The notes under the pieces were generated by a model. That model was not told the DNA's origin and made no database searches. It worked only from the letters and a program-made list of their open reading frames with translations. A stretch of DNA of 51,586 nt. It comes from Dethiobacter sp. GTDB lineage: Bacteria > Bacillota > Dethiobacteria > Dethiobacterales > Dethiobacteraceae. The position numbers were made by a program, and so were the translations under genes. Positions 18,569 to 42,304 of this stretch are shown here, one piece after another. The stretch's first letter is position 1. Every line of letters starts with the position of its first letter. The stretch is from assembly GCA_018333635.1 (NCBI GenBank), contig JAGXTL010000007.1:1-51586 (forward strand). The letters run 5' to 3'.

Positions 18569-19207
18569 ATGCGGCTGTTAAGGAGAATATTTCTGACTGG
18601 TTTAGTAATATTGCTGCCGTCAATTATTAGTATTTATATTTTAAGTTTGACGTTTAACTGGGTCGATTCATTGCTTGGCAACCTGCTGCGTCAGTATCTG
18701 GGCGTGAGAATCCCCGGACTGGGACTTCTGATTACCGTAAGCGCAATTTTTGTTACAGGCTTGGTGGCAAATAATGTTTTTGGCAGCAGAGTGCTGAAAA
18801 TGGTCGAAAATGGTTTTGCAAATATTCCTTTGATAAGGCCCATTTATACTGCAACCCGGCAGATAATCGACGCTTTTTCGCTCCAGCGCAAAAGTGTTTT
18901 TGATTCGGTAGCTATGATTGAATACCCGCGTAAAGGCATATATGGCCTCGGTTTTGTAACCGGCAAAAATTTAGGAGAAGTCCAAGCGAAAACCTCCAAA
19001 GATGTGGTTGCTTTGTTTATGCCTACAACACCTAACCCCACGTCAGGTTTTCTGCTTTTGGTGCCGCGTGAAGATTTGATACCGCTGGAAATGTCGGTGG
19101 AAGAAGCGCTGAAACTGATTATTTCCGGTGGTGTAATTGTCCCTGACTGGCCCCTAAGTCCGGTAAAAACGGACCAGCATTGCATATCGCTCGAGACAGG
19201 CAGTTGA
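18569..19207 (+). CDS. DUF502 family membrane protein
   Basis: This 212-residue protein opens with the MRLLRRIFLTGLVILLP motif typical of DUF502. It has two hydrophobic helices (about residues 7-30 and 50-75), then the conserved NGFANIPLIRPIYTATRQI segment and a soluble beta-rich C-terminal part. ATG 18569 is chosen because the family begins at this arginine-rich motif and GGTGG lies five bases upstream; TTG 18557 and GTG 18560 are alternatives. The function of the family is unknown. It follows nth by a short gap. Confidence 0.88.
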   Translation: MRLLRRIFLTGLVILLPSIISIYILSLTFNWVDSLLGNLLRQYLGVRIPGLGLLITVSAIFVTGLVANNVFGSRVLKMVENGFANIPLIRPIYTATRQIIDAFSLQRKSVFDSVAMIEYPRKGIYGLGFVTGKNLGEVQAKTSKDVVALFMPTTPNPTSGFLLLVPREDLIPLEMSVEEALKLIISGGVIVPDWPLSPVKTDQHCISLETGS

Positions 19208-19224: not shown

Positions 19225-19253
19225 TGGGACAAGGGGACAGGTGATTTGTCCCA
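19225..19253 (+). repeat. 29-bp REP-like element, copy 1 (inverted relative to copy 2)
   Basis: The sequence begins TGGGACAA and ends TTGTCCCA, so each copy is itself an imperfect palindrome that could form a hairpin. The exact reverse complement of all 29 bases recurs at 21376-21404 on the other side of the transporter gene. Similar GGGACA...TGTCCC palindromes are scattered in other Clostridia as REP-like elements. No REP-associated transposase is in the window. Confidence 0.85.
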
Positions 19254-19510
19254 GATTGCAAACATTAACTGATTGAGAAGATTTAAATAACAGGATACCT
19301 AATATCTACTCTCCAGATTTGTTGTGTTCACATCAGCACTGTGGTAGAATCGGTGATAAGTGACGCTTATCCCTCCTTTGGCGAATTGCCTTGGAAACAA
19401 GTCCTGGTGTTGCATTCCGGTGTTGCATTAACGAGGGGAATAGACTGGCTTCGTACCTACCCGCCTGCGGTTTGCAGATGGCGAAAGGAAGTGCCCATAT
19501 AATAACAGAG
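19254..19510 (+). other. Leader region before the transporter gene
   Basis: This stretch is open in the transporter frame from 19391 but its translation does not look like protein. It holds a 6-bp hairpin (GATAAG/CTTATC near 19352-19368), an 11-base direct duplication GGTGTTGCATT (19406-19416 and 19419-19429), and a TATAAT at 19498-19503. I could not match it to a known riboswitch class. It may be an untranslated leader. Confidence 0.35.
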
Positions 19511-21349
19511 ATGAGGTTGGTTTTTTTTATATTAGGAATGACCACGGTCGGCTTTTTAATACCTAAATTTAGACCAGACTTAGTGGCTCTAAGCTCACTG
19601 TTGACCCTCCAGCTAACGGGGATACTCACTCTGCAGGAGTCCTTAACCGGCTTTGCCAATAGTGTGGTGATCATGATTGCTGCCCTGTTTATTGTGGGAG
19701 AAGGCATACTTCAAACCGGGTTGGCTCAACAGGCAGGAAATATGCTAGTGAAGTGGACTGGAAACAGTGAATTGAGAGTGACAATGTTCATGCTGACCCT
19801 GGTTGCCATTTTAAGTGGATTCATTAGCAATACCGGCACCGTTGCCATTTTGTTGCCGGTGGTGGTCAGTTTAAGCAGGCAGATGCAACTCCATCCGGGG
19901 AAATTGCTGATGCCTTTAGCTTTTGCCAGCAGTATGGGGGGTGCTTTGACTTTAATTGGGACGGCTCCTAATCTAATTGCCAGGCAAAGCTTGATTGACC
20001 ACGGCTACCCAGGGCTGCGTTTTTTTGCCTTTACTCCCATTGGCCTAGTAATTTTATTGGCAGGAATTGCATATCTATGGTTTTTTGGCCGTCGTTGGCT
20101 GGATAAACCCTTGGAAAAAGAAAAGAAACTCACAGGAGTTTTTGACGGGGAAGATTTGCTGGAACAATACCGTATTGAGAACTTCATTCATCCTGTTTTG
20201 GTGCCGGCAGACAACAGTATTGTAGGAAAAACACTGAGAGAGCTCTATTGGCCCAGTAAGTTTGGTGTAACCGTCTTAGAGATTGTAAAGAAAGAAGGGG
20301 AAAGCCGCTTACGCCTGCCTTTTAGTCCAGTCTCCCGGCGCTTAACTGCCGGTCCCAATTATACAGTAGATGCAGGAGATGTTTTACTGGTCTTTACGGA
20401 AGTAGAAAAATTAAATAGTTGGGTTGAAAAGACAGGCCTCGAAAAAGTTCAGGCCACATTATCAAAGGAATATCGACCTGAAGAATCTAAAATGGCTGAA
20501 GTGATTTTGACCCCCAATTCTCGTTTAATCAATACTTCTATAGAAGATATTCATTTTCGAGAAAAGTATGGGTTGACTATTTTGGCGCTTAAGCGTCAAT
20601 ACAAAGGCTCAAAACGCCCGTCACCAGATGCTGAGCTTGCTTATGGCGACGCGATGCTGGTTCATGGAAAGTGGGAGGATATTGATCTTTTGGCTCAAGA
20701 GAAAAATGATATGGTTGTGCTAAAGCATGCAGTAGAGCCTGCTAAACAGAATCAGCCGATGCGGGCTGCTATCGCCGGACTTATCCTTTTGTCGATGCTG
20801 GTGATGCTGGTGCTAGAGTGGCTGCCTGCAGTCACTACAGTGATCTTCGCCGCATTACTAATGCTATTGTCTGGTTCCATCAGACATGCGGACCAAGCTT
20901 ACCGGTCGGTGAACTGGCAAACAGTAGTGCTGATTGCCAGCATGCTGCCAATGGCTACCGCATTAGAAAAAACAGGAGGGGTGAAGTTTCTGTCTGAAGG
21001 GTTAATTTCTGTTTTGGGGGCTTTTGGCCCAATGGTGGTGCTAGGGGGACTTTATGCAATTACATCTCTGCTCAGCCAGTTTATCAGCAATACGGCTACA
21101 GCCGTCTTATTATTTCCCGTAGCCATTTTAACAGCTCAGCAGATGGGGGTGAGCCCTGTCCCCATGGTCATGGCAGTTGCTTATTCGGCAACCATGGCCT
21201 TTGCCACTCCTGTGGCTACTCCTCCAAACGCCATGGTTATGGCAGCAGGGAATTATACTTTTTTTGACTTTGTCCGAGTAGGGGTACCCCTGCAGATTTT
21301 CATTGCTCTGATTACAGTATTCATTCTGACTCTGTTTTTTCCTTTTTAA
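19511..21349 (+). CDS. SLC13-type ion/anion transporter with two RCK_C (TrkA_C) domains
   Basis: This roughly 612-residue polytopic protein has two halves of hydrophobic helices flanking a soluble centre. Each half carries an SNT motif (SNTGTVAILLPV and SNTATAVLLFPVA), the hallmark of the SLC13/CitM superfamily. Two RCK_C/TrkA_C domains (about residues 190-300 and 310-400) should bind a regulatory ligand. The substrate is unknown; dicarboxylates, sulfate and other anions occur in the family. The start is not certain: ATG 19511 begins the first helix, ATG 19478 and TTG 19391 are upstream options, and none has a good Shine-Dalgarno. The gene stands alone inside a 29-bp inverted repeat pair. Confidence 0.85.
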   Translation: MRLVFFILGMTTVGFLIPKFRPDLVALSSLLTLQLTGILTLQESLTGFANSVVIMIAALFIVGEGILQTGLAQQAGNMLVKWTGNSELRVTMFMLTLVAILSGFISNTGTVAILLPVVVSLSRQMQLHPGKLLMPLAFASSMGGALTLIGTAPNLIARQSLIDHGYPGLRFFAFTPIGLVILLAGIAYLWFFGRRWLDKPLEKEKKLTGVFDGEDLLEQYRIENFIHPVLVPADNSIVGKTLRELYWPSKFGVTVLEIVKKEGESRLRLPFSPVSRRLTAGPNYTVDAGDVLLVFTEVEKLNSWVEKTGLEKVQATLSKEYRPEESKMAEVILTPNSRLINTSIEDIHFREKYGLTILALKRQYKGSKRPSPDAELAYGDAMLVHGKWEDIDLLAQEKNDMVVLKHAVEPAKQNQPMRAAIAGLILLSMLVMLVLEWLPAVTTVIFAALLMLLSGSIRHADQAYRSVNWQTVVLIASMLPMATALEKTGGVKFLSEGLISVLGAFGPMVVLGGLYAITSLLSQFISNTATAVLLFPVAILTAQQMGVSPVPMVMAVAYSATMAFATPVATPPNAMVMAAGNYTFFDFVRVGVPLQIFIALITVFILTLFFPF

Positions 21350-21375
21350 CACAAAGAAGGAAGTCACGATATTTT

Positions 21376-21404
21376 TGGGACAAATCACCTGTCCCCTTGT
21401 CCCA
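21376..21404 (-). repeat. 29-bp REP-like element, copy 2
   Basis: This is an exact reverse complement of 19225-19253. It lies 26 bases past the transporter stop. Flanking bases outside and inside the 29 bp do not match between copies, so the repeat has sharp edges. Confidence 0.85.
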
Positions 21405-21431: not shown

Positions 21432-21461
21432 CAAGAATGCCGGCTGCAGCCGGCATTCTTG
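21432..21461. terminator. Bidirectional terminator between the transporter and lexA
   Basis: A perfect 13-bp stem (CAAGAATGCCGGC / GCCGGCATTCTTG) around a TGCA loop lies between two convergent genes. CTTTTGC follows on the plus strand and a TTGTTTCT run follows on the minus strand. Confidence 0.8.
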
Positions 21462-21517: not shown

Positions 21518-22132
21518 TTAATGAATATAACGGAAAACACCGATAACTTTACCTAATACAACAATATGTGGGGAAGAAATCGGTTCATAGAAGTCGTTCT
21601 CAGGTTGCAGGCGGATATGGTCTTTTTCCTTAAAGTAGCGTTTTACCGTAGCTTCACCCTCCAGCATAGCCACCACAATTTCACCATTTTGGGCATCTGC
21701 TTGTTGTCGCACTATTACTAAGTCTCCGTCCGTGATAGCGGCATTGATCATACTATCGCCTCGCACTCTAAGAAGAAACACTGTGTCCTGATGCACCAAC
21801 ATCTTGGGCAGAGGAAAATAGTCCTCAATATTTTGCTCTGCCAGTAGCGGTTCGCCCGCAGTTACATGACCAACGATAGGAACGTTGACAATATCCTCGA
21901 TAAACGGAGAAGCAGAAAGATAATCGAGCAGTTCGATGGCTCGCGGCTTAGTCGGATCCCGGCGGATGAACCCTTTTTCCTCCAGTTTCGCCAGATGAGC
22001 ATGGACAGTCGAACTGGAAGACAAACCTACCGCTTCGCCAATTTCCCGAACAGAAGGCGGATAATTTTTTGTTCTTACCTCGCGGCGGATGTAATTGAGG
22101 ATTTGCAGTTGTCTTGTTGTCAGGTCGTCCAA
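21518..22132 (-). CDS. lexA: LexA repressor
   Basis: This 204-residue SOS repressor has a winged helix domain (about residues 1-65, with [20 protein letters not shown]) and a peptidase S24 domain. The self-cleavage site is Ala92-Gly93 (VTAGEP), and the catalytic dyad is Ser127 (GDSM) and Lys164 (ATVKRY). I start at TTG 22132, which gives the family length and follows GGGTGGTG. The longer reading to 22189 adds residues that do not belong to LexA. An SOS box lies about 50 bases upstream, so it should repress itself. Confidence 0.95.
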
Positions 22133-22183
22133 ACGGCAACACCACCCTTTTAGCTGAATTATACCATAACCTACAAAAAAATC

Positions 22184-22195
22184 AAACATTCGTTC
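22184..22195 (-). promoter_or_regulatory. LexA-binding site (SOS box) upstream of lexA
   Basis: On the minus strand this reads GAACGAATGTTT, one base from the Gram-positive consensus GAACnnnnGTTC. It is placed for autorepression of lexA. It is 160 bases from the plus-strand transporter operon and probably does not control it. Confidence 0.7.
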
Positions 22196-41678: not shown

Positions 41679-41698
41679 TGAGACAGTCGATCAGCAAT

Positions 41699-41848
41699 CC
41701 CCTCTCCCTCTGGGTTAGGACACAGATCCCCTCTCCTTCTGGGTTAGGACACAGATCCCCTCTCCCTCTGGGTTAGGACACAGATCCCCTCTCCTTCTGG
41801 GTTAGGACACAGATCCCCTCTCCCTCTGGGAGAGGGTTAGGGTGAGGG
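41699..41848 (+). repeat. Tandem 29-bp repeat array with 58-bp higher-order period
   Basis: Four complete 29-base units start at 41699, 41728, 41757 and 41786. A fifth partial unit (41815-41848) changes into the common CCCTCTCCCTCTGGGAGAGG hairpin repeat. Units 1, 3 and 5 have CCCTCT while units 2 and 4 have CCTTCT, so the array grew by duplication of a 58-base pair of units. Each unit ends GGGTTAGGACACAGAT. There are no spacers, so it is not a CRISPR array. Confidence 0.9.
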
Positions 41849-41918
41849 CAGAGTGAGTGGTGGCAATTTTCAGGGTAGGTTGGTGTTGCTCATCACTGTA
41901 CTTTGCGGGGATTCACCC

Positions 41919-41943
41919 GTAGGGGCGGGTTTGAAACCCGCCC
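41919..41943 (+). repeat. GC-rich palindromic repeat, copy 1
   Basis: GTAGGGGCGGG followed by TTTGAAA and CCCGCCC forms a near-perfect palindrome. This element type recurs twice more within 200 bases. It is a dispersed repeat known from many bacterial genomes and could act as a hairpin. Confidence 0.75.
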
Positions 41944-42041
41944 TTGCTAACATTTAGAGCGTGCAGCTTTTTTCTTGTATCATACCAGGAAATTATATAG
42001 TTTCTTAAGCAGTGGGAGGTGTCGCAAGGCGATTCCCTTTC

Positions 42042-42066
42042 GGGCGGGTTTGAAACCCGCCCCTAC
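42042..42066 (-). repeat. GC-rich palindromic repeat, copy 2 (inverted)
   Basis: This is the same element as 41919-41943 in opposite orientation, ending in CCCCTAC. It differs only at the central base of the palindrome. Confidence 0.75.
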
Positions 42067-42106
42067 AAATGGGTTTGTAAGGAACGAGGATGTGCAGAGC
42101 CTGTGT

Positions 42107-42121
42107 CGGGTTTGAAACCCG
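42107..42121 (+). repeat. GC-rich palindromic repeat, degenerate copy 3
   Basis: Only the core CGGGTTTGAAACCCG survives. The flanking G and C runs are eroded. Confidence 0.6.
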
Positions 42122-42304
42122 CCTTTATCAATGGGATAAAGTGCAGCTAAACGGCAGCAAGAATATATTGTTTAAGTGAGGAATTATGTTGGCAGATAAA
42201 ATGCGCTAAATGTTGTCGTCTAAAACGTCCGATAATATATATTATGTTAACTTATTAAAATTTTTTTTGTTTCCGTTGCTCAATTTGTGATAATATTTTC
42301 GATG

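Follow-up and report, generated by a model that had tools for sequence, protein, structure and literature searches.

The window analysed here is a 51,586-nt stretch of DNA from Dethiobacter sp., contig C55 of a source genome (G000) of 2.39 Mb in 137 contigs that is 98% complete. At positions 19225–21404 of the window, a single transporter gene is enclosed by two inverted copies of a 29-bp repeat. We consider it probable that this unit is a non-autonomous mobile cassette that has the transporter as its cargo and 29-bp ends of the type belonging to REP (repetitive extragenic palindromic)-associated tyrosine transposases (RAYTs), and that the RAYT encoded on contig C49 of the same genome would serve it in trans. 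Comparison of homologous stretches shows that entire units with repeats at both ends were moved or copied in G000 and in G055, a genome of another family. A sequence-only reading of the window had named three possibilities, a mobilisable unit, an invertible segment and a pair of mRNA-protecting hairpins. The first of these is supported by a second copy with the same edges on contig C19, two relatives with unoccupied sites, a RAYT accompanied by the same repeat, and the G055 case.

The unit, its second copy and its unoccupied sites

The 29-mer (TGGGACAAGGGGACAGGTGATTTGTCCCA) lies at 19225–19253 (+) and 21376–21404 (−). The two copies are 100% complementary and the match ends at 29 nt without extension, as the sequence-only reading had described. 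This pair is the top-ranked inverted repeat in the window, with an expected number of 0 in 100 dinucleotide shuffles. The hairpin that had been noted in each copy is predicted to fold with a stem of 8 bp (TGGGACAA/TTGTCCCA). The whole unit is 2180 bp long, with 46% G+C compared to 47% in the window, and its 2122-nt spacer contains a leader and the transporter open reading frame (ORF) and nothing more; the ORF and domain matches agree with the earlier statement that an SLC13-type transporter and its leader alone are enclosed.

In a protein search of the same genome, the C-terminal 45 residues of the transporter gave a second match, on C19. The C19 copy (C19:6887–7339) measures 453 bp from 29-mer outer edge to outer edge, and in it a deletion of 1822 nt has brought the 3′ end of the gene next to the initial ~137 nt of the leader. 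Inside the unit, the C55 and C19 copies are 95.6% identical in the leader and match at 142/144 positions in the 3′ coding part, whereas the outer 60-nt flanks match at 18/60 and 14/60 positions, which is background. Thus, the homology is bounded by the outer edges of the 29-mers; the left edge is precise within two A's that by chance precede both left ends. Ahead of the right repeat, C19 retains some 80 bp that are lost in C55, indicating that both copies descend from a longer parent. At the junction of the 1.8-kb deletion in C19, CCT is common to both sides, as in slippage.

The repeats of C55 and C19 have the same orientation relative to the gene. This bears on the suggestion that the transporter is turned over, and its expression switched, when the inverted copies recombine. 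Perfect inverted repeats are able to support inversion, but the two copies do not differ in orientation, no invertase gene was seen beside the repeats, and promoter and gene both lie inside, so that flipping would leave them connected. No evidence for an invertible segment was obtained, and we regard it as extremely unlikely.

The features of the unit and its flanks are as follows.

18569..19207, + strand: left flank, DUF502 gene, downstream of nth; syntenic with LexA, without the unit, in G001 and G002
19225..19253, + strand: left terminal inverted repeat, 29 bp, hairpin-forming; exact match, C55/C19 homology begins at its outer edge
19254..19510, + strand: leader/promoter region inside the unit; first ~137 nt kept in the C19 copy
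19511..21349, + strand: cargo, SLC13/DASS-family anion transporter (CitMHS / Na_sulph_symp / TrkA_C), 612 aa from ATG
21350..21375, + strand: right subterminal spacer, ~80 bp shorter than its C19 counterpart
21376..21404, − strand: right terminal inverted repeat, 29 bp; exact match, edge of C55/C19 homology
21432..21461, no strand: right flank, terminator-like palindrome between convergent DUF502 and lexA; kept in G001/G002
21518..22189, − strand: right flank, lexA

Three other genomes of the same genus (G001, G002 and G003) were available for comparison, together with 98 genomes of the class. Neither transporter nor repeat stands between DUF502 and lexA in G001 and G002, where the same terminator-like palindrome comes immediately after the DUF502 gene and lexA is next; in G000, the unit is inserted just past the DUF502 stop codon, upstream of the common DUF502/lexA terminator. 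Likewise, the C19 neighbours hcp and cooS (assigned by eye) are adjacent in both genomes without the unit. The sequence-only reading had considered that the transporter might sit at the same locus in relatives lacking the repeats, the bracket then being a coincidence; it was found at this locus in none of them.

A comparable, independent case was found on contig C157 of G055. This contig carries two units of 398 and 405 bp that contain a truncated RAYT and are separated by 3 kb; they are 95% identical inside, their flanks match at 15/60 positions on both sides, and their edges fall at the local repeat variant. Taken together, the second copy with the same edges, the unoccupied sites and the G055 pattern lead to the conclusion that the repeats are the ends of a moved unit. 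In addition, G055 contig C187 (L192) carries two REPIN (REP doublet forming hairpin)-like inverted repeat doublets of ~150 bp, about 1 kb apart, with spacers 95% identical.

The same observations bear on two other explanations. One is that the repeats, as hairpins that protect mRNA or resemble terminators, were inserted independently on the two sides of the transporter, and that an ordinary duplication produced the C19 fragment. Although the repeats are mostly intergenic and chance brackets are known (CobA in G079), the homology of the two copies ends at the repeat edges on both sides, which largely refutes this explanation, and the gene is absent from the locus in relatives and the pattern recurs in G055; we therefore consider coincidence very unlikely. 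Protection of mRNA may still occur as a side effect of the hairpins, but it leaves the second copy unexplained. The other is cassette exchange without a transposase, by homologous recombination between incoming 29-bp repeats and a resident inverted pair at each site. The repeats are identical and inverted pairs occur throughout the class; however, the unoccupied sites of G001 and G002 have no repeat, 29 bp is very short for recombination, and the event would be needed twice in G000 and twice in G055, making this an unlikely route.

The C49 transposase and the repeat family

The sequence-only reading had pointed to a REP-associated tyrosine transposase as something to look for. A single Y1_Tnp gene was found in G000, a RAYT-type gene (PF01797) on C49, and it lies between repeats of the 29-mer family (14125+ and 15092+ on one side; 16118−, 16162− and 16205− on the other). 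This RAYT is intact, with HVH and Y-IHQ-NP (YIHQNP) motifs, and an alignment with seven relatives shows no variation at the catalytic H, H and Y. The combination of Y-IHQ-NP and HVH is the class 2 signature (PMC6006769). The protein also matched the solved Escherichia coli TnpA-REP structure 4er8 (E = 8e-5). Elsewhere in the class, RAYTs were found in (+ ... −) brackets in G079, G044, G059, G029, G091 and G093.

We propose that the resident C49 RAYT acts in trans. It would recognise the hairpin ends in single-stranded DNA and use HUH/Y1 chemistry, and everything between a (+) and a (−) repeat would be moved with no target duplication, as with IS200/IS605-type enzymes. TnpA-REP is known to cleave REPs (PMC6006769). 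The lack of a recognisable target duplication agrees with an HUH/Y1 mechanism, the diverged unoccupied sites leaving some doubt. It is also conceivable, though fairly unlikely, that another transposase moved the unit, for example one since lost or one left behind in the organism that donated the transporter: outside G000, the transporter occurs in distant bacteria, and one transposition may have taken place in the donor. However, the ends of the unit are identical to those of the resident RAYT, and no other Y1_Tnp gene was found in this genome, which is 98% complete.

A whole-genome search of G000 found 10 exact 29-mers, 30 copies at ≤3 mismatches and ~41 with the 19-nt core, tens of copies rather than the hundreds that the sequence-only reading had allowed for. 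All 10 exact copies fall in four (+ ... −) brackets, on C19, C46, C49 (the transposase) and C55 (the window), for which a naive hypergeometric calculation gave 6e-8. The non-exact copies mostly represent one end of a longer, one-sided composite repeat. The 19-nt core occurs in 47 copies in G001 and in none in G002 and G003, and variants of the repeat were also found in other families of the class. Among the repeats listed, nearest opposite repeats less than 2.5 kb apart were (+ −) in 43 cases and (− +) in four (p = 3e-9); repeats within one cluster are not independent in this count, but the direction of the bias is clear. These results confirm the REP-like character that had been suggested, the family being of the inverted-repeat-flanked (TIRtron) type and not of the GTAG REP type.

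Several points weigh against the interpretation of the unit as a RAYT-mobilised cassette. There are only two copies of the cargo, one of them degenerate. Neither a target motif nor a target duplication could be read at the unoccupied sites of G001 and G002, because these sites are short and diverged. The C49 RAYT scored 76.8 bits on the NCBIfam model REP_Tyr_transpos, for which the cut-off is 80, and its own left repeat is imperfect; three other RAYTs of the class that were checked have no such repeats nearby. Moreover, the bracket around CobA in G079 is coincidental, since in G081 and G082 the gene occupies the corresponding position and has no repeats around it, and after this control bracketing by itself was dropped as evidence of movement. 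Accordingly, other bracketed genes read from the sequence, namely a kinase, an MNT/HEPN-like pair and a permease pair, were not counted as cargo. That RAYTs of this class routinely move gene-sized cargo between inverted hairpin repeats, the dispersed repeats forming a gene-cassette mobilisation system, is for these authors a tentative and rather doubtful extension.

Two further candidates were set aside. The locus in G001 that corresponds to the C49 RAYT lacks the RAYT and retains a partial repeat; given this leftover, it was read as a loss and rejected as an unoccupied site. Spread of the unit by phage or plasmid was also rejected, as viral contigs contained no exact 29-mer and plasmid homologues of the transporter were all <60% identical.

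Some other observations concern these repeats and their surroundings. The 329-bp bracket on C46 has an interior without a convincing homologue in the three other same-genus genomes; homology to G001 and G002 restarts just past its outer right edge, and the absent stretch extends to the left beyond the bracket. On contig C105 of G054 (L184 1059–2085), a nucleotidyltransferase/HEPN-like pair, toxin–antitoxin-like by eye, lies within an inverted repeat pair and is a possible second cargo unit. The composite repeat of G001 and G000 (e.g. L064–L087) resembles a bacterial interspersed mosaic element (BIME), one end being the 29-mer core (GGGGGACAGGTGATTTGTCCCACTCGTCCACGCGACCACCCCGCCC...). On C49, two ORFs, those of the ATP-dependent ligase and the LigD primase-polymerase, take their final codons and stop (QGDR*) from repeats of this family (L092 2126–2154 and 3092–3120). 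A ~4.5-kb CO dehydrogenase-like/Ku/ligase stretch on the same contig (L228 1597–6137) is 98.4% identical in G001, compared to ~76–87% for the adjoining DNA; its site is unoccupied in G002, similar GAGGGTRATGAGT sequences stand at its flanks, and the C49 RAYT is situated at the right edge of this insertion.

Relation to known mobile elements

To our knowledge, the published picture of RAYTs is one of domesticated, single-copy genes that mobilise REPINs of ~100 bp only and make no copies of themselves. In the two cases presented here, the transporter block of G000 and the RAYT remnants of G055, repeat-bounded units move whole, and one of them carries an ordinary gene; if RAYTs carry genes, REP-type repeats are possible ends of gene cassettes. 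MIC231 belongs to IS231 (IS4 family, with a DDE transposase), whereas the ends of the window unit belong to a Y1/HUH system. Mobile insertion cassettes (MICs) of the MIC231 kind are described as having transposon ends around a passenger gene, as lacking a transposase of their own, and as being mobilised in trans (PMC3129680, PMC2266710). The window unit resembles them in its insertion sequence (IS)-type ends, its passenger gene and its lack of a transposase (PMC3129680).

In TIRtrons, which encode TIRYT transposases, a Y1 gene lies between terminal inverted repeats that share GGGGWSAS and of which further copies are scattered through the genome (Di Nocera et al., 2013; PMC3733652). The 29-mer contains GGGGACAG, which fits GGGGWSAS (PMC3733652), and the terminal inverted repeats of the window unit are the sequence that flanks the Y1 transposase of the genome. 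However, the unit has no transposase and carries a transporter, and hence is not itself a TIRtron; cargo of this kind is not described for TIRtrons in PMC3733652. REPINs, which are mobilised by RAYTs, contain no gene, and their spacers are short (modelled at 71 or 110 bp) (Bertels and Rainey, 2011; PMC3116915). Like them, the window unit consists of two inverted palindromic repeats forming one mobile non-autonomous unit, but its spacer is 2122 nt long with a 612-aa gene, and the 29-mer lacks the GTAG/GTRG tag, which the sequence upstream does not conserve either. The C49 RAYT, with HUH and Y---NP motifs and its own repeats at its flanks, resembles the REPtron/TnpA-REP arrangement; RAYT genes and REPtrons do not appear mobile as units (PMC6006769), whereas in the present case a unit with repeats at its ends moved, carrying other cargo. 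Finally, the palindrome-associated transposable elements (PATEs) of Haloquadratum are too short to encode a transposase and, unlike the window unit, lack terminal inverted repeats; the likeness lies in being transposase-free, with IS605-type palindromic ends, core-deleted forms and no target duplication (PMC3119063).

On these comparisons, the window unit would be a MIC-like derivative of the TIRtron type, mobilised in trans by a RAYT. No report of non-transposase cargo in RAYT systems was found in a limited open-access literature, subscription papers lying outside it, which is weak evidence of novelty.

Transporter, leader and other repeats in the window

The transporter starts at the ATG at 19511 and is of SLC13/DASS type with two TrkA_C stretches; its nearest solved structure is in the VcINDY family. 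It has no close relative in the three other same-genus genomes. The best match among 60 relatives, in G049 from another family, is 66%, and further relatives are found in alkaliphilic Bacillaceae. The absence of close relatives in the genus and the best match in another family suggest that the transporter was probably acquired horizontally, from outside. Orthologues start with M-[LI]-[TS]-D-M, four codons upstream of the ATG, where the window (19499–19511) reads ATA ATA ACA GAG ATG. A plausible AAAGGA ribosome site lies upstream of the ATA codon, and ATA appears to stand in place of the usual ATG start codon; translation, and with it expression, may be weak, or translation may start at the later ATG.

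The leader matched no Rfam family up to E = 1, the sole match being a weak one to rli61 at the right end, and its fold is not unusually stable (z-score +0.40). Beyond the C19 copy, no homologue of the leader was found in the 98 class genomes, and the upstream regions of five orthologues contain nothing similar. A recognisable riboswitch was rejected on the Rfam result, the fold score and the lack of conservation. The oddity of the leader would be better explained as upstream DNA brought along with the gene. Promoter and terminator scans gave no useful result.

Two other repeats were observed in the window. Positions 41697–41841 hold a tandem array of a 29-bp unit (ATCCCCTCTCCYTCTGGGTTAGGACACAG), and a palindrome related to it stands at the border of the C19 insertion and, in G001, at the same site. 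Nearby, at 41916–42131, a palindromic CGGGTTTGAAACCCGCC repeat occurs in three copies.
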